The notes under the pieces are model-generated. The model saw nothing but the letters and a program-made list of their open reading frames with translations. It did no database searches and was not told where the DNA came from. A program made the translations under genes and the position numbers. From NCBI GenBank assembly GCA_016742055.1, contig JACVCK010000008.1:1-33647 (forward strand): a stretch of DNA of 33,647 nt, given 5' to 3'. Within the stretch, counting starts at the first letter, position 1, and each line of letters begins with the position of its first letter. This stretch comes from Phycisphaerales bacterium (GTDB lineage Bacteria; Planctomycetota; Phycisphaerae; Phycisphaerales; UBA1924). Positions 9,294 to 30,197 of this stretch are shown here, one piece after another.

Positions 9294-11294
9294 ATGCCGC
9301 GAACGATCGCCCTGCTGACTCTCGCCTGCGTCCTCCTTGCCCCCTGCTTGCGCGCTCAGGACGAGGCGCCCCCGCCCGCCGAGGCGCCGGCCCAGCCCGA
9401 CTGGTCCGAGACGGCGCCTCCGGTTCCCGAGCAGACCGCGCCGGGCGCGCCGGCGATCGATTTCGCCTCGCTCCCGCCGCAGATCCGCCTGGGCGTGCGC
9501 GTGGCCCTGGTCCGGCAGAACATCCCCGTGCACTCCACGGTGGTGATTGTGCCCGACGCGTCGGCGTACATCGAGGCCATCGGCGAGTGGCGGACCGAGG
9601 CCCGATTCCCCGTCCTGATCGACGATGGCTCCGCTGAAGCCGCCGAGAGCATCGCGCGGTTCGTCCGCGCCTTCCGGCCCGACGCGGTCGTCCGATGGCC
9701 GGGCTCCGGGCAGGTCTGGGCGCAGTCGATCGAGGTCCTGCGCCAGCGCGTGGACGACGCCGCGGCCCGGGCGTTCGGCGCCGAGAACCGCGAGAAGATC
9801 CGCGAGCGCTGGGAGGAACTGCGCTTCGCCCCCATGGGCGTGGTCGTGGCGTCCATTAAGGACCCCGCGTGGGCTGGCGCGCTGGCGATGGCGGCGGGCT
9901 ACGGCCAGCCGATCGCGTGGGTGGACGTTGAGCCCCGCTCGCTCGCGGGCGAGGTCGCCCCCGAGGAGATCGCGGCGCTCAACGGAGCGGTGGCGTCCCT
10001 GTGCGAATCGCTCGAACTTCCGTTCGCGGGCTTCGGCGACGCGGTGGACGCGTTCACCGTGTGCCTGAACATGCCCACGAAGCACCCCGGCGCCGACGGG
10101 CCCTTGGCCGTCACCGACCTGCTCGGGCGCAACGAACAGAAGTTGCGCTGGGCGTACGTTGGCCTCATGCCCGGCGACGCGCCCACCAGCGCCTACCGCG
10201 CCATGTGCTCGCTGTTCCTCAACCCGCGCTCCGGCTGGTTCGTGGACGGCTACGAATCCAGGCGCGAGACGGCCGGCTACGACGTCAACCGCCCGGCCGC
10301 GATCCTGCGCGAACGCGGCGTGGTGTCCGTCACCGACCGCAGCCCTGGCGTGGGGCGTGCGGCGTGGCGCTCGCGCGCGGCCCTGGGCGTGGACGCGGGA
10401 TTCATCCACCTCAACTCCTCCGGCCAGCGCCGCTGGTTCCGCCTCCTCAAGGACGACGTGGACGCCAGCGACATCCCCCTCCTGCGCACGCCGAGCATCG
10501 TCCACATGATCCACTCCTTCTCCGCACAGAATCCCGACGACGGGCAGTCGATCGCGGCGCGATGGATGGACCGCGGCGCCTACGTCTACTTCGGCTCGGT
10601 GGACGAGCCCTACCTCCGCGCATTCCAGAACCCCCAGACCATGGCCCGGCGCTGGTCCTCCAAGGCGCCCTTCTCGATCGCCGTCCGCGTGGACGGGCTC
10701 GAGCCGTGGAAACTCAACTACTTCGGCGACCCCCTGCTGACCCTCACCAGCGAGCCGCAGCGCAAGCCCGGCGCGCCGGCGCTGTCGGGGCTCGAACCGC
10801 TGGACGGGCTCCTCCGCGCCGCCATCCGCGAGCGGCGGCTGGCCGACGCCGCCCGGATGCTCGTGCTCATGGGGCGCGACGAGGACGCCGCAGGGCTGTT
10901 CGCCGCGGCGCTGGCGGACAAGGACCACGAAGTTTCGCCCGAACTGGCGGAGGCGTGCTTCTACCCGCTCGTCCGCGCGGGCGACGTGCCCGGCGCGGTG
11001 AGCGCGTTCGAGCGCATGTCCGACCGGGCGCGCCGGAGCAACATCGCCGCGGACACGCTCTGGCTCGCCGCGCGGCCCCGGCTGGCGCTCGTCCCGCCCG
11101 ACCTCCGCACCGCGCAGGTCCTCAAGGCCAACGTGCGCCCGCACGCCAGCGCCGACGACGCCGAAGCGCTCGCCCCCGCGCTCCGGCGCATGGAGAGCGC
11201 CGAATCCGTCCGCGCCTGGCTCCAGACCCTCGCGAACGAAACCAAGAACCAGAAGGACCGCCAGCGCCTGACGGAACTCCTGTCGCGCTACTAG
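9294..11294 (+). CDS. Large secreted protein with a gingipain/caspase-like segment, function unknown
   Basis: The protein has 666 residues, with a signal peptide (MPRTIALLTLACVLLAPCLRAQ) and a Pro/Ala-rich spacer. An alpha/beta region follows (VVIVPDASAYIEAIGEW, ARFPVLIDDGSAE, IARFVRAFRPDAVVRW) that reads like a surface-repeat Rossmann-type domain. The middle contains GVDAGFIHLNSSGQRRWF. Later come SIAARWMDRGAYVYFGSVDEPYLRAFQNPQ and EPWKLNYFGDPLLTL. The last two patterns, 'GA-x-x-x-G-S-x-x-x-P-Y' and 'GDPLL-x-L', are reminiscent of C25 gingipain-like proteins; I cannot assign a catalytic Cys. The C-terminal ~170 residues are helical, tetratricopeptide-like (ERRLADAARMLVLMGRDEDAAGLF). The ATG at 9294 is chosen because the signal peptide starts there and TATCAT lies 7 bases upstream. 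Its TAG overlaps the convergent cstA stop in a shared CTAG. Confidence 0.55.
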   Translation: MPRTIALLTLACVLLAPCLRAQDEAPPPAEAPAQPDWSETAPPVPEQTAPGAPAIDFASLPPQIRLGVRVALVRQNIPVHSTVVIVPDASAYIEAIGEWRTEARFPVLIDDGSAEAAESIARFVRAFRPDAVVRWPGSGQVWAQSIEVLRQRVDDAAARAFGAENREKIRERWEELRFAPMGVVVASIKDPAWAGALAMAAGYGQPIAWVDVEPRSLAGEVAPEEIAALNGAVASLCESLELPFAGFGDAVDAFTVCLNMPTKHPGADGPLAVTDLLGRNEQKLRWAYVGLMPGDAPTSAYRAMCSLFLNPRSGWFVDGYESRRETAGYDVNRPAAILRERGVVSVTDRSPGVGRAAWRSRAALGVDAGFIHLNSSGQRRWFRLLKDDVDASDIPLLRTPSIVHMIHSFSAQNPDDGQSIAARWMDRGAYVYFGSVDEPYLRAFQNPQTMARRWSSKAPFSIAVRVDGLEPWKLNYFGDPLLTLTSEPQRKPGAPALSGLEPLDGLLRAAIRERRLADAARMLVLMGRDEDAAGLFAAALADKDHEVSPELAEACFYPLVRAGDVPGAVSAFERMSDRARRSNIAADTLWLAARPRLALVPPDLRTAQVLKANVRPHASADDAEALAPALRRMESAESVRAWLQTLANETKNQKDRQRLTELLSRY

Positions 11295-13702
11295 GTCGTT
11301 CGGGCGTCAACGATCGCACGCTGCAGGCGCGGCAGTCGGCGCGCCGTCTCGATCAGCAGCCACGCCTCCAGCGTCAGCACGACGAGCGCGAACGCCAGCA
11401 GCGGCCACTGCTTCGTCTCCCACCACGACGCTGTTCCTTCGTTGCCGATGAACGCCTGCCAGATCATCGCCCACGCGGGCACGATCAGCATGAAGATCGC
11501 CGCGGGGACCACGATCCACGTCGGCCGGCGCGTCGCGCGGAGCCAGGCGTAGATCACGATGAACGCCAGACCGCCGAGCAACTGGTTCGTCGCTCCAAAG
11601 AGCGGCCAGAGGATCATCCCGCCCTTGCCGGCGTTCGCGAGTGTCCACGTGGCGCCGGTGGGGGGGATCGCCGCGAGGATCGCCGCCGCGACGACGGCGA
11701 ACATCGTCGCCCCGTGCACGGTCGCGAGCCACTTGAAGGGATTGAGATTCGACGCCGCATGCCACGCGCGATCGCCGGCGTCGTGGTGGTAAATCTCGTG
11801 CTGCGGCCTCTCGGCGCCGCACTCCGGGCAGCGGACCATCGCCGCCGCGGCCACCTCGACCTCCACCTGTTTGCCGTCGATCACGCCCTTCAGGTCGTAC
11901 CCGCACGCGGCGCAGGCGAACGCGCCCCGCTTGGGCAGGAACGTCCGCGCCAGTTCCTGCAGGACGTACCGGTTGAGCCGGCACGCCGTGTCCATCGTGG
12001 TGCCCGCGAACGACGCCACGAGCACGCCCATGAGCGCGACGGCCATGCCCTCGGGGATGCCGAGCGCCTCGACAAGGTTCGCCGCGCCGGTGACGAACGC
12101 GCCGACGGTGGCCGCGAGCCCGCCCGCGGCGTTCCAGGACCTGTACTGTTGGGCGAATGCGAGGTCGCCGTAGAGCCGGAGTTCACCATTCGATTGTAAA
12201 TGAACCACGCTGCCGTCGAATCTGAGCGGATCGTAGACTGCTTCGCCCGTCACGCTCGCGATCAACGGATCGGGATTTTCGCGATATGCATCCCACTGCG
12301 GCTGCGATCCCGTCTGCAATCCCAGCGCTCCGATGAATGATCCAGGCGAACTTGCGATGGCCAGTGTGTGGATCTTGGCGTGCTCCGCCACCTCCAACTC
12401 GCCTCGGGGATTGATCCGAGCTTCAGCAAGAACTCCGATCGTTCGTTGCTGCCCCCCCGCGAATGGGACAGTCACCGGAGCGCCCAACAGCACGGGGCGG
12501 CTGACTCCATTGGCATCGGTCTGGAGGGCTCCGATGGCCGGGCCTGATAATGAGGCCGTCACACCCCCCAGCCCCAACCCCGCCACACACGCCACGATCA
12601 CCAGGATCGCCAGAAAACTCTCCGTGAGCATCGACCCGTAGCCCACCGGCAGGGCATCGGTCTCCTTCTTCAGTTGCTTGCTGGTGGTGCCGCTGCTGAC
12701 GAGGCAGTGGAAGCCCGAGATGGCGCCGCAGGCGACGGTGATGAACAGGAGCGGCACGATCGGCGGCGCGCCCTGGGGCTGCCAGTTGACCATCGGGGCG
12801 ACGATCTCCAGAGGGATGCGCTCGACCTCGCCCGGGGCGACCTCCAGTTTCCCCCCGAACAGCGCCGCGGCGACTAAACCTGCCACGATCAGCCCCAGCG
12901 CCGAGACCAACTGCAGCGCGTTGATGTAGTCCCGGGGCTGGAGCAGGACCCACACCGGCAGCACGCTGGCGATGTAGCAATAGGCCAGCAGGCCGATCGT
13001 CCACGCCCAGAGCGGCTGCGCGGCGAGGAACTGGTTGAACGTGTGCAGCCCCCCGATGGTCGGGCCGAAGGACGCGTCCCCGAACATGACCGAGGCGTAC
13101 ATCAGAACCAAGGCGACAATGCTGACCAGCACGATCGACCCGCCCCGCCGGTGCACCATCACACCGATGACGATGGCGAGGGGAATCTGGAAGAGGACGG
13201 GGAAGATCGCCGCGGGAAACTGGCGCAGGACGCTGGCGATCACCAGCCCGAAGATCGCGAGGACGATCCACAGCCCCAGCGCCAGCACGCACAGGAAGAT
13301 CAGCCGCACGCGCGGCCCGAGCAGGTCACCCGCGATATCCCCGACTGTCCGCCCCTTGTTCCGCAGCGACACCACCAGCGAGCCCAGGTCGTGCACGGCG
13401 CCGATGAAGATTCCGCCGAACACCACCCACAGGACCGCCGGCAGCCAGCCCCACATCACCGCGATCGCCGGGCCCACGATCGGCCCCGTGCCCGCGATGC
13501 TCGTGAAGTGGTGCCCGAAGACGACGGACTTGGCCGTCGGGCAGTAGTCGCGCCCGTCCTCGTACACCACCGCGGGGGTGGGCGAGTCTTCTCGGAGCGT
13601 GAAGACTCGCCTCGCCACCCAGCGGCCGTATGTGAAGTAAGCCACGATGAGCAACCCGCCAGCGACGACGGCGAGCAGCAGCGCTTCCATATCGGCCATC
13701 AT
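11291..13702 (-). CDS. cstA: CstA-family carbon starvation / peptide or pyruvate transporter with inserted domains
   Basis: The protein has 803 residues and many transmembrane helices. It carries the CstA signature DYCPTAKSVVFGHHFTSIAGTGPIVGPAIA near the N-terminus, plus VHDLGSLVVSLRNKGRTVGDIAG, SGFHCLVSSGTTSKQLKKETDALPVGYGSML and ILWPLFGATNQLLGGLAF. CstA proteins import peptides or pyruvate when carbon is scarce. Two insertions are unusual. One is a soluble stretch of about 140 residues (about 380-525) after the AILVIVACVAGLGLGG helix; its DNA is markedly less GC-rich. The other is a zinc-ribbon-like module between helices, with C597/C600 (CAACGYDL) and C625/C628 (CPECG). I took the ATG at 13702 because upstream sequence is out of character. 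No close Shine-Dalgarno is visible. Divergent from the next gene by 38 bases. Confidence 0.85.
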   Translation of the reverse strand: MMADMEALLLAVVAGGLLIVAYFTYGRWVARRVFTLREDSPTPAVVYEDGRDYCPTAKSVVFGHHFTSIAGTGPIVGPAIAVMWGWLPAVLWVVFGGIFIGAVHDLGSLVVSLRNKGRTVGDIAGDLLGPRVRLIFLCVLALGLWIVLAIFGLVIASVLRQFPAAIFPVLFQIPLAIVIGVMVHRRGGSIVLVSIVALVLMYASVMFGDASFGPTIGGLHTFNQFLAAQPLWAWTIGLLAYCYIASVLPVWVLLQPRDYINALQLVSALGLIVAGLVAAALFGGKLEVAPGEVERIPLEIVAPMVNWQPQGAPPIVPLLFITVACGAISGFHCLVSSGTTSKQLKKETDALPVGYGSMLTESFLAILVIVACVAGLGLGGVTASLSGPAIGALQTDANGVSRPVLLGAPVTVPFAGGQQRTIGVLAEARINPRGELEVAEHAKIHTLAIASSPGSFIGALGLQTGSQPQWDAYRENPDPLIASVTGEAVYDPLRFDGSVVHLQSNGELRLYGDLAFAQQYRSWNAAGGLAATVGAFVTGAANLVEALGIPEGMAVALMGVLVASFAGTTMDTACRLNRYVLQELARTFLPKRGAFACAACGYDLKGVIDGKQVEVEVAAAAMVRCPECGAERPQHEIYHHDAGDRAWHAASNLNPFKWLATVHGATMFAVVAAAILAAIPPTGATWTLANAGKGGMILWPLFGATNQLLGGLAFIVIYAWLRATRRPTWIVVPAAIFMLIVPAWAMIWQAFIGNEGTASWWETKQWPLLAFALVVLTLEAWLLIETARRLPRLQRAIVDARTT

Positions 13703-13740
13703 GACGCGCGATTGCACAAAAGGGAAGCCCCCTCCCCCCG

Positions 13741-26727: not shown

Positions 26728-28800
26728 TCAGCGGGGGAGAGCCTCGGTCAGGCCGGGCACGCCCGAAGCGCCCGTGGGGACCTGGATGGTCGAGCCCGCG
26801 AAGTCGTTGGAACTGATCGGCTCGGTGCGCCCGCCCAGGTGCTCGGAGAGGAAGGCGTCGGTGACGGCGAAGAAGGAAAGGTTGTTCTCGGGGCGGGCGA
26901 AGCCGTGCCCTTCATCGGGGAACAGGACGTAAGAGACGGGGATGCCCTTCTTCTGCATCGCTTCCACGATCTGGTCGGACTCGCTCTGCTTCACGCGCGG
27001 GTCGTTGGCGCCCTGGCCGATGAGCAGCGGGCGCTGGATCTTGTCCACGTGGGTGAGCGGCGAGCGCTCGTGGAGGAACGCCTGGCCCTCGGGGCTGGTG
27101 TGGTCGCCCACGCGGTCCTTGAACATCTTGATCGCCGGCGCCCAGTAGGGCGGGATGGTGTTGAGAAGCGTGACGATGTTCGAGGGCCCGACGATGTCCA
27201 CGCCGCAGGCGAACTTCTCGGGCGTGAACGTCAGGCCCACGAGCGTGGCGTACCCGCCGTAGGAGCCGCCCATGATGGCGACGCGCGCCGGGTCGGCGAT
27301 GCGCTCGGCGACGGCCCAGTCCACGGCGTCGATGAGATCGTTGTGCATCTTGCCGGCCCATTCCTTGTTGCCGGCGTTGACGAAATTCTTGCCGAAGCCG
27401 GTGGACCCGCGGAAATTCACGCTCAGCACCGCGTACCCGCGGTTGGCGAGCATCTGGTGCAGGCCGTTGTAGCCCCAGGAGTCCCGCGCCCACGGGCCCC
27501 CGTGGACGAGCAGCACCATCGGCAGCGGCTCATTCGGGCGCTCGGCGCCGGGCGAGGCCGAAGACACGGGCAGCGTGAGGTACGACACCAGGTTGAGATT
27601 GTCGCGGCTCTTGATGATCACGGGGCGCATCGGCGCCAGGACGTACTTCTCCAGCGCGCTGCGGTTGTTGAATAGGAACTGCGCCTTCTGAGTGGGCCGG
27701 TCCCACAGGTAGTACGCGATCGGGCCGGTGTCGCTGATGAACGCCACCACCCAGCGCTTGTCGTCCAGCGTGCGGCTGACGACCTCGAAGTCGCCGTCGC
27801 GCAACTTGCGGAGCGCCTCGAAGTCGGGGGCGATCGACTTGTCCACGATCTTCCAGCGCTCGCGGTCGTACTCGAACGCCACCGCCTGGATCTCGTAGGT
27901 CGTCGGGTGGATCATCAGCGAGCCCGAGTCGGCCAGCGGGTCCTCCGCCACCATCTTCTTCTCACCTGTGGCGAGGTCCCAAGTGAATACGGCGCCCGTG
28001 TCGCGCCCGCGGCTGTCCGACATGTACAGGACCTTGCCAGTCTTATCGAAGCCCAGCGGGCCGCTGGACATCTGGTCCTCCATCGGGATGTTCGTGAACT
28101 CCTTCCAGTCCGCGCCGTCCCCGCCCGGCGGCAGCAGGAGCGAGAGACTCCCATCGTCGCTGTTGAGCACCGCCGCGAAACGGACCTTGTAGTCCGCGTC
28201 GGTCATGAAGCCGTTGACCATCCCGCGCCCCATCATCCCCGGGTTCTCCTGCACCAGCGTCATCTCGCCGGTGGCCAGGTTCACGCGGTGCACGTCGTGG
28301 AACGCGGGGTTGCGGTTGTTCAGGCCGACGAGGATCTCGCCGGGGATGCGCTGGCTCACGCCCTCGATCCGCGCCGCCACACCGTCAAAGGGCGTCAGGT
28401 CGCGCACCTCCCCGGTGGCGGCATTCGCGCTGAACACCCGCCAGTTCTCATCGCCGCCCTTGTCCTGCAGGTACACCACGTGCTGGTTGTCGAACGCCCA
28501 GAAGTACACCCGGATGCCCCGATTCGTGTCCCGGGTCACCGGCTTGGCCTGCGAAAGGTCGCCCGCCGGCGCCACCCACACGTTCATCACGCCGTCCACC
28601 GGGGCAAGCCACGACACGCGGGCCCCGTCCGGGCTGATCCGCGGCGCCGCCTTATCCGGGTTGTCGAACAGGACCCGCCGGGGGATCAACGGAACCTCGG
28701 ACCCGGCGACCCGGGCGTCGTTCGGACCGGCGGCGAGGGCCGCGGTGGTCACGGCGACGGCGGTCGAACACAGCAGCACACGCGAGAGCAGCGATCGCAT
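26728..28800 (-). CDS. Secreted S9 family peptidase (prolyl oligopeptidase / acylaminoacyl peptidase type)
   Basis: The 690-residue protein has a signal peptide (MRSLLSRVLLCSTAVAVTTAALA). A seven-bladed WD-like propeller follows (PRISPDGARVSWLAPVDGVMNVWVAPAGD and further repeats). The C-terminal alpha/beta-hydrolase domain has LLVHGGPWARDSWGYNG and LSVNFRGSTGFGKNF. The nucleophile Ser is in MGGSYGGYAT, the Asp in GQGANDPRV and the His in PDEGHGF. All three triad members are present. Such enzymes cut short peptides, sometimes dipeptidyl or acylaminoacyl ends. AGGAG nine bases before the ATG at 28800 fixes the start; the region up to 28869 is not coding-like. It is a single-gene unit ending at a strong terminator. 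Confidence 0.93.
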   Translation of the reverse strand: MRSLLSRVLLCSTAVAVTTAALAAGPNDARVAGSEVPLIPRRVLFDNPDKAAPRISPDGARVSWLAPVDGVMNVWVAPAGDLSQAKPVTRDTNRGIRVYFWAFDNQHVVYLQDKGGDENWRVFSANAATGEVRDLTPFDGVAARIEGVSQRIPGEILVGLNNRNPAFHDVHRVNLATGEMTLVQENPGMMGRGMVNGFMTDADYKVRFAAVLNSDDGSLSLLLPPGGDGADWKEFTNIPMEDQMSSGPLGFDKTGKVLYMSDSRGRDTGAVFTWDLATGEKKMVAEDPLADSGSLMIHPTTYEIQAVAFEYDRERWKIVDKSIAPDFEALRKLRDGDFEVVSRTLDDKRWVVAFISDTGPIAYYLWDRPTQKAQFLFNNRSALEKYVLAPMRPVIIKSRDNLNLVSYLTLPVSSASPGAERPNEPLPMVLLVHGGPWARDSWGYNGLHQMLANRGYAVLSVNFRGSTGFGKNFVNAGNKEWAGKMHNDLIDAVDWAVAERIADPARVAIMGGSYGGYATLVGLTFTPEKFACGVDIVGPSNIVTLLNTIPPYWAPAIKMFKDRVGDHTSPEGQAFLHERSPLTHVDKIQRPLLIGQGANDPRVKQSESDQIVEAMQKKGIPVSYVLFPDEGHGFARPENNLSFFAVTDAFLSEHLGGRTEPISSNDFAGSTIQVPTGASGVPGLTEALPR

Positions 28801-28931
28801 CGTGGAGTTCTCCTGAAGGGCTTGAGGCGCCCGAGCGGCGTCTTCGGCCCTGCGCCAATGTACCCACACCCGCCCCGCGCGTTGCGTCGGGGGGGCCAGA
28901 GTCGGGCCAAAACGGGTCTGAAACGGGCCGG

Positions 28932-29396
28932 TCAGAGGATCTCGACGACCTCGAACCGCTTCACGCCCCGGGGGGCGTCCACGCGCACGACGTCCCCGAC
29001 TCGGGCTTTGAACAGGGACGCGCCCATGGGGCTGCTGACCGTCACCTCGACGTGCTCGGCCATCAGGTCCCCCGAGGCCTCGCCGACGATTTTGAAGGTG
29101 TCTTCTTCGCCGGTTTCGGTGTCGCGCAAACGGACGACAGCCCCGAGGAACACCACGTCGGTCGGAACCGAGCCCTCCTCAACCACCTTGGCGTTGGCCA
29201 GGCGCTCTTCGAGGCGGCGGATCTCCGACTCATCGATGGCCTGCTCCTCGCGGGCGGCGTGGTAATCGCCGTTTTCCTTGAGGTCGCCCAGGGCCCTGGC
29301 GTCAGCGATGCGCAGGGACACCTCGGGCCGCCGGGCCTTGAGTTGATCGAGCCGAGCCGCGATCTGATCGCGTTCCGCCTTGGTCAGAAACTCCAT
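28932..29396 (-). CDS. greA: Transcription elongation factor GreA
   Basis: GreA reaches into the RNA polymerase secondary channel and stimulates cleavage of backtracked RNA. The 154-residue protein has the N-terminal antiparallel coiled coil with its acidic tip (ARALGDLKENGDYHAAREEQ; D and E carry the activity). The FKBP-like C-terminal domain follows (VVFLGAVVRLRDTETGEEDTFKIVGE ... SSPMGASLFKARVGDVV). The length is normal. GAGG eight bases before the ATG at 29396 supports that start over one six codons upstream. An intrinsic terminator ends only ~21 bases before the ATG, and a TAGACT hexamer lies above it, so the terminator appears to be in the greA leader. Confidence 0.95.
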   Translation of the reverse strand: MEFLTKAERDQIAARLDQLKARRPEVSLRIADARALGDLKENGDYHAAREEQAIDESEIRRLEERLANAKVVEEGSVPTDVVFLGAVVRLRDTETGEEDTFKIVGEASGDLMAEHVEVTVSSPMGASLFKARVGDVVRVDAPRGVKRFEVVEIL

Positions 29397-29417
29397 GGTG
29401 ACTGCCTCGTGCAAGCG

Positions 29418-29447
29418 AAAAAAAGACGGGCGGCGAGGCCGCTCCGT
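29418..29447 (-). terminator. Intrinsic terminator in the greA leader (possible attenuator)
   Basis: On the minus strand ACGG-(A)-GCGGC pairs with GCCGC-CCGT around a CTC loop (29447-29426), followed by C and seven Ts (29424-29418). It ends ~21 bases before the greA ATG and starts ~34 bases after the stop of the preceding gene. It could end the mur/ftsQ-like operon, regulate greA by attenuation, or do both. Confidence 0.8.
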
Positions 29448-29477
29448 GGGGGGATCGGACGTCAGAACGGAGTGTGG

Positions 29478-29483
29478 AGTCTA
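29478..29483 (-). promoter_or_regulatory. Putative greA promoter -10 element (TAGACT)
   Basis: TAGACT on the minus strand overlaps the TAG stop of the upstream membrane-protein gene. Transcription from here would start near 29471 and pass through the terminator at 29447-29418 before reaching greA. No -35 hexamer is obvious. Confidence 0.4.
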
Positions 29484-30197
29484 GGCCCTTCCGAGCCCCG
29501 GCGCCCCGCGGCCCGTGCGCAACGCCGCCGCACCCCAGCCCACGAGCCCCAGGCCGGCGACGCCCCCCGCCCACGTCCACACATTCGGCCCAGGCGCCGG
29601 CCGCAGGCCCCCCGGCGCCGCGGTCAGAACGAACGGCAGCGTGATCGGCGAAGGGGTGAGCCATCGCGGGTCCACGCCCCGGCCCGGCTGCGCCGCGGCC
29701 AGCCCGAGGGCCGGCGCGCCGCCGGCGAGCGCGACGGCGACGAGCATCCACAGCGTGCGCGCTTGGGCCGAGGCGCTCGCCGTGCCCAGCGCGACGATGG
29801 CGCCCGCGAGCATCGCCCATGCCGTGGCGTGCACGCTGAGCGCAAGCGTGACGTCCCAGCCCCATCGCCCGATCAGCGTCAGAGGCCAGAGCACCGCCTG
29901 CACAGGGCACAGGGCGACGAACAGGTCCTGCATCGCGGCCCGGACGGGCCGCTCGGGCGACTGCTGGCTGAGCCGGATCAGGGGCCACACCACGGCGATC
30001 CCCACGCCCACGACGACCAGGAGCGCCCGCGCCGGCCCGCGCGCCGCCTCGATGTCCAGCCCGCGCGCCGACCCGGCGCGCAGCACCGTCAGCAGGGCCC
30101 CGCCCAGGAGGAAGACGGTCCAGAGCAGCGCGAAGGGGCGCGGCTCGGCGCGCCGGTGGGCCCACCGGTCGGCGCTCGGGCCTGCGCCGTCGCTCAC
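29481..30197 (-). CDS. Polytopic membrane protein at the end of the mur/ftsQ-like operon
   Basis: The protein has 238 residues with about six hydrophobic helices: FALLWTVFLLGGALLTVL, ALLVVVGVGIAVVWPLI, LFVALCPVQAVLWPLTLI, LSVHATAWAMLAGAIVAL, LWMLVAVALAGGAPALGLA and WAGGVAGLGLVGWGAAAL. I do not recognise a family and see no catalytic motif. The start is a GTG at 30197 that overlaps the stop of the ftsQ-like gene as GTGA, so it is translated from the same operon. That position hints at an envelope or division role, but nothing in the sequence proves one. Confidence 0.7.
   Translation of the reverse strand: MSDGAGPSADRWAHRRAEPRPFALLWTVFLLGGALLTVLRAGSARGLDIEAARGPARALLVVVGVGIAVVWPLIRLSQQSPERPVRAAMQDLFVALCPVQAVLWPLTLIGRWGWDVTLALSVHATAWAMLAGAIVALGTASASAQARTLWMLVAVALAGGAPALGLAAAQPGRGVDPRWLTPSPITLPFVLTAAPGGLRPAPGPNVWTWAGGVAGLGLVGWGAAALRTGRGAPGLGRA

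Follow-up and report, generated by a model that had tools for sequence, protein, structure and literature searches.

GreA is a general transcription elongation and proofreading factor. In Escherichia coli, its gene follows a leader in which a promoter, about 20-25 nt of leader, a GC hairpin, a U-tract and a ribosome binding site succeed one another, a layout resembling the one described here (Potrykus 2010; Dylewski 2019, PMC6829880). The GraL RNAs starting at promoter P1 are 49-59 nt long, 19 nt of which precede the terminator, and roughly a third of the leader transcripts read through (PMC6829880). Sense intrinsic terminators 5' of greA are also found in many other species. In a survey of 5' terminators, greA/rnk ranked seventh among gene families, with representatives in Proteobacteria, Bacilli and Clostridia (Naville & Gautheret 2010, PMC2965389). 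Planctomycetota, in contrast, are not among the groups named there for greA. Terminators in greA leaders have thus been recognised before as widespread, and the comparison reported below adds Planctomycetota to their distribution on sequence evidence. Among the papers searched, there was no Planctomycetota study of greA transcription start sites or 3' ends.

The greA locus of a Phycisphaerales bacterium

The window, i.e. the whole analysed stretch of 33,647 nt, comes from an incomplete Phycisphaerales genome (69.8% complete, 268 contigs). It was compared with greA relatives from Phycisphaerales MAGs and other Planctomycetota, about 190 Planctomycetota loci in total. The minus-strand ORF at 28932-29396 (154 aa, ATG at 29396-29394) is certainly greA judging by its family assignments, as it scores above the NCBIfam TIGR01462 cut-off and has both Pfam domains, GreA_GreB_N and the C-terminal GreA_GreB. 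On its upstream side lies a minus-strand ORF for a membrane protein (29481-30197) without a Pfam or NCBIfam family, its TAG stop at 29483-29481, preceded in gene order by an ORF in the ftsQ position, ddl and murB. A homologue of this ORF adjoins greA on the upstream side in most loci of the order.

Several observations concern the surroundings rather than the leader. Downstream of greA, the window encodes an S9-type peptidase (26728-28869, Peptidase_S9), and a Peptidase_S9 look-alike, identified by eye, stands directly upstream of greA in loci L017 and L051, so the link between greA and the peptidase appears to be kept with the order changed. Elsewhere in the window, a long ORF resembling a transporter (11291-13717) carries an insertion with the pattern CxxC...CxxC (CAACGYDLKG...VRCPECG) that looks zinc-ribbon-like by eye. 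In many Planctomycetota genomes outside the order, GreA-like C-terminal domains are part of much longer open frames (about 720-1080 aa) that may be GreA fusions; at the threshold applied, a small stand-alone GreA was missing from some of these genomes.

Between the upstream ORF and greA, the minus strand from 29483 to 29394 reads, 5' to 3', TAGACTCCACACTCCGTTCTGACGTCCGATCCCCCC-ACGGAGCGGCCTCGCCGCCCGT-C-TTTTTTT-CGCTTGCACGAGGCAGTCACC-ATG. That is, TAGACT, which includes the TAG stop, is followed by 30 nt, a 22-nt hairpin, a C, seven Ts, 21 nt including GAGG, and the greA ATG. GAGG (29405-29408), located 8 nt 5' of the ATG, is the putative ribosome binding site. The hairpin (29426-29447) has a 9-bp stem composed of ACGG/CCGT and GCGGC/GCCGC; a single A is bulged, the loop is CTC, and one C (29425) separates the hairpin from the seven-T tract (29418-29424). 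Its folding energy is -14.6 kcal/mol (z = -2.55), equalled in 4 of 200 shuffles, and its terminator score is 45 by a d'Aubenton-Carafa-type function. A simple scan of 27-33 kb returned it as the sole minus-strand terminator-like site, and the opposite strand of the hairpin has no T-run. The GC hairpin and U-tract are thus in the sense direction upstream of greA, as in a 5' leader terminator. It is highly improbable that this is a chance structure without function: the genome is GC-rich and the whole 85-nt leader folds no better than its shuffles (z = -0.83), but the hairpin with its T-run is far above shuffles, antisense counterparts are lacking in related greA gaps (see below) and the terminator is conserved in the window's clade.

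TAGACT (29478-29483) is the putative -10 element of a greA promoter. Counting about 7 nt past it, transcription would start at 29471. The hexamer reaches a leave-one-out score of 10.2, against a 5% shuffle threshold of 8.8, and it corresponds to TANANT, which is conserved in relatives. The -35 position is occupied by GGGCGC (29501-29506) at a 17-nt spacing; this is a poor match, lacking the T that is present in 70% of relatives. At the level of motifs, then, a promoter with a weak -35 precedes the terminator. The original prediction had described both a TAGACT hexamer overlapping the upstream stop and a 9-bp bulged stem with seven Ts on the greA strand ahead of the ribosome binding site, and both descriptions proved exact.

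Recurrence of promoter motif and terminator in Planctomycetota

Among 79 greA gaps of the same order, TANANT occurs in the sense direction in 31 and in the antisense direction in one, with 3.3 occurrences in shuffles; in the larger set of the order, it lies upstream of greA in 48 of 124 loci. When these 48 sites are aligned on the hexamer, 34 have a T at -23, followed by GG, which corresponds to a -35 element with a 17-bp spacer (binomial p ~4e-14). Generic TANANT sites before other genes of the same genomes have no such T (frequency 0.21). The closest relative found, L228 (GreA 82% identical), has TACAAT at the same 30-nt spacing as in the window, followed by a hairpin and a T-run. Its -10 adjoins a TAA stop, whereas that of the window overlaps TAG. 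Since the hexamer was kept despite the changed stop codon, it seems to be more than a by-product of the latter, and many relatives carry TACANT that is often not stop-derived.

The placement of the promoter relative to the hairpin is consistent. According to the leave-one-out score, 27 of the 28 loci having a terminator have their best promoter match ahead of the hairpin, among them all 11 loci with a match above the 5% shuffle threshold; the single best match lying downstream (L051) is weak. In the window itself, no promoter-like site is present between the hairpin and the ATG, which speaks against greA transcription starting below the hairpin, one of the two outcomes that the original prediction had named as contrary to it.

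Sense terminators recur as well. At a score of at least 10 they are found in 19 of the 79 gaps and at a score of at least 20 in 18, compared with 2.1 and 0.6, respectively, in dinucleotide shuffles (0.07 per shuffled set at a score of 30), and there were no antisense terminators at score 10 in the same gaps. The larger set of the order has a terminator in 29 of 124 loci, or about a quarter, the other Planctomycetota in about half of their greA loci, and the window's own clade on the GreA tree in 7 of 11. At least 19 changes of terminator state on this tree indicate a trait that is kept in some clades and has often been gained or lost. Several Planctomycetota families (L245-L284, L099 and L103) share look-alike greA leader hairpins, for example TGCGACCT...AGGTCGCA-TCTTTTTTT and AGCGGGGCC...GGCCCTGCT-TCTTTTTTT, for which a separate RNA family may be warranted. 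In the phylum set, some greA start codons were probably placed about 18 nt too far downstream; this leaves order and orientation unaffected.

Leader terminator or operon end

An alternative explanation is that the hairpin serves only to terminate the upstream cell-wall and division cluster at its 3' end, that the stop codon happens to create TAGACT, and that greA is transcribed by leak-through or from an unrecognised promoter. Indeed, the hairpin resembles an ordinary 3' intrinsic terminator between co-directional genes, in which a hairpin and U-tract come soon after the stop codon. In the window, it lies 33 nt past the upstream stop and 29 nt from the ATG, so that it falls only narrowly on the leader side of the distance rule of PMC2965389. 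In the order, 19 of 23 hairpins are closer to the upstream stop than to greA and the remaining 4 fall on the leader side, which is why position alone is not decisive there. Leader-type terminators assigned by position showed no enrichment in the order (4/76 greA versus 5/120 controls), and the position rule was dropped as proof for the order because it did not separate greA from controls. Many other Planctomycetota, on the other hand, pass the rule clearly: 15 of 27 co-directional loci fall on the leader side, and in several families the hairpin lies 100-250 nt past the upstream stop, close to greA.

The same reading draws on the patchiness of the trait and on the fact that terminators are common in other co-directional gaps. 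In the order, 13 of 120 control gaps have one; even so, greA gaps have it more often (24/77, p 4e-4), and for the other Planctomycetota the difference is larger (27/42 greA versus 11/125 control, p 3e-12), although these Fisher p values overstate independence since the loci are related. It is the combination with a promoter that is far rarer elsewhere. A -10 element followed by a terminator was found in 11 of 77 greA gaps but only 1 of 120 control gaps in the order, and in 15 of 42 versus 2 of 125 in the other Planctomycetota. These comparisons used co-directional gaps of 50-400 nt and a -10 at most 45 nt before the terminator, with control gaps drawn from 20-kb pieces and small contigs, in which genes were called by a simple home-made dicodon model. 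An ordinary 3' terminator would also be expected to differ in arrangement from what is found here, where the conserved promoter of the next gene, with its spaced -35 and its often not stop-derived -10, stands before and not after the terminator, and where, in the window, nothing promoter-like lies between the hairpin and the ATG.

Loci with altered surroundings point in the same direction. The original prediction had proposed looking at relatives with a different upstream gene, and the hairpin is kept in such loci: in L017, which belongs to the window's clade, and in L051, it is retained with an S9-type peptidase gene upstream of greA, and in L036, where a Nudix-like gene is inserted between the usual neighbour and greA, the terminator stands directly before greA, with none behind the usual neighbour. 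The hairpin is thus not tied to the upstream operon, and its loss in the absence of that operon, the second outcome named as contrary to the original prediction, was not seen. The terminator is absent from most loci with another neighbour, and likewise from most with the usual one. A divergent neighbour means that there is no upstream gene needing a terminator; in such gaps, leader-type terminators were present in 5 of 16 greA loci versus 5 of 74 controls in other Planctomycetota and in 2 of 13 versus 3 of 140 in the order.

Taken as a whole, these comparisons speak for a leader terminator rather than a simple operon end, and we consider it unlikely that the hairpin serves the upstream cluster exclusively. 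The original prediction had kept that simpler reading in play. Its exclusive form does not fit a hairpin kept with other upstream genes, but a second role at the operon end is likely given that most hairpins of the order are nearer the upstream stop. We conclude that a terminator lies within the leader of greA, and that the same hairpin probably stops upstream transcription too.

Proposed mechanism and relation to GraL

We think there is a good chance that greA in the window has its own promoter followed by a leader terminator, which would set and maybe regulate its expression while also stopping transcripts from upstream. The hairpin, the U-tract, the conserved promoter motif, the order promoter-terminator-greA and the recurrence across the phylum can be read directly from the DNA. 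According to the proposed mechanism, a promoter of the sigma-70 type, located where the upstream gene ends (-10 TAGACT, 29483-29478), would start an RNA near 29471 that meets the intrinsic terminator after about 24 nt. Termination at 29424-29418 would turn part of the transcripts into a leader RNA of about 54 nt (29471-29418), and the rest would read through into greA, so that the terminator would set greA expression from the 5' leader, possibly in a regulated way. Transcripts arriving from the upstream operon should be stopped by the same hairpin.

It is tempting to go further and assume a full equivalent of GraL, in which GreA promotes termination within the leader of its own gene and the short RNA that is set free works in trans. 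The geometry is that of the E. coli GraL leader (PMC6829880), and the predicted terminated RNA of about 50-55 nt would resemble the short GraL RNAs, which measure 37-59 nt in vivo. Furthermore, the catalytic acids of GreA are conserved: D38 and E41 of the GDLKEN tip, which are required for autoregulation in E. coli, are invariant in the alignment of relatives. Such conservation, however, is expected of any GreA. Conservation of the leader is poor even between the window and L228, whose GreA proteins are 82% identical (p 0.06 against shuffles); the leaders of the window and L002 align better than shuffles (p 0.003). Such weak conservation favours a role in cis over a conserved trans-acting RNA. 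An Rfam search of the window and the leader gave no match, either at the gathering threshold or with E values up to 5, although Rfam may lack a GraL model. In addition, the leader here is unrelated to GraL in sequence and comes from another phylum, its putative promoter sits on the stop codon of the upstream gene, and, whereas GraL involves two promoters, GreA-dependent termination and a trans-acting RNA, the resemblance of the leader here is one of layout. A full GraL equivalent therefore seems improbable to us, whereas regulation of the leader by GreA is possible in this organism. The original prediction had equated the geometry with that of E. coli and proposed independent use of leader attenuation. 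The first part is supported by the order promoter-terminator-greA in the comparison over the roughly 190 loci; the second would look the same as an old trait that was often lost.

A classical attenuator, with a mutually exclusive antiterminator sensing a ligand or the ribosome, is much less probable still. A pairing of CCGUUCUG (29470-29463) with CGGAGCGG in the 5' arm of the terminator is possible at -9.3 kcal/mol, but shuffled leaders pair as well (p 0.58), other loci mostly lack the pairing, and some leaders are too short for it, with 7-8 nt before the hairpin. Since the pairing does no better than in shuffled leaders, an antiterminator like the one reported in PMC2965389 finds no support here.

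Returning to the leader terminator itself, its gains and losses between related species provide ready natural comparisons of greA with and without it. That the phylum-wide terminator constitutes a GreA feedback loop, arisen or kept separately from the enterobacterial GraL, is a rather speculative idea that we hold only tentatively. If it were true, self-limitation of GreA through its own leader would be a recurrent solution in distant bacteria. And if leader termination sets the GreA level in Planctomycetota too, the GraL arrangement would be no enterobacterial oddity.
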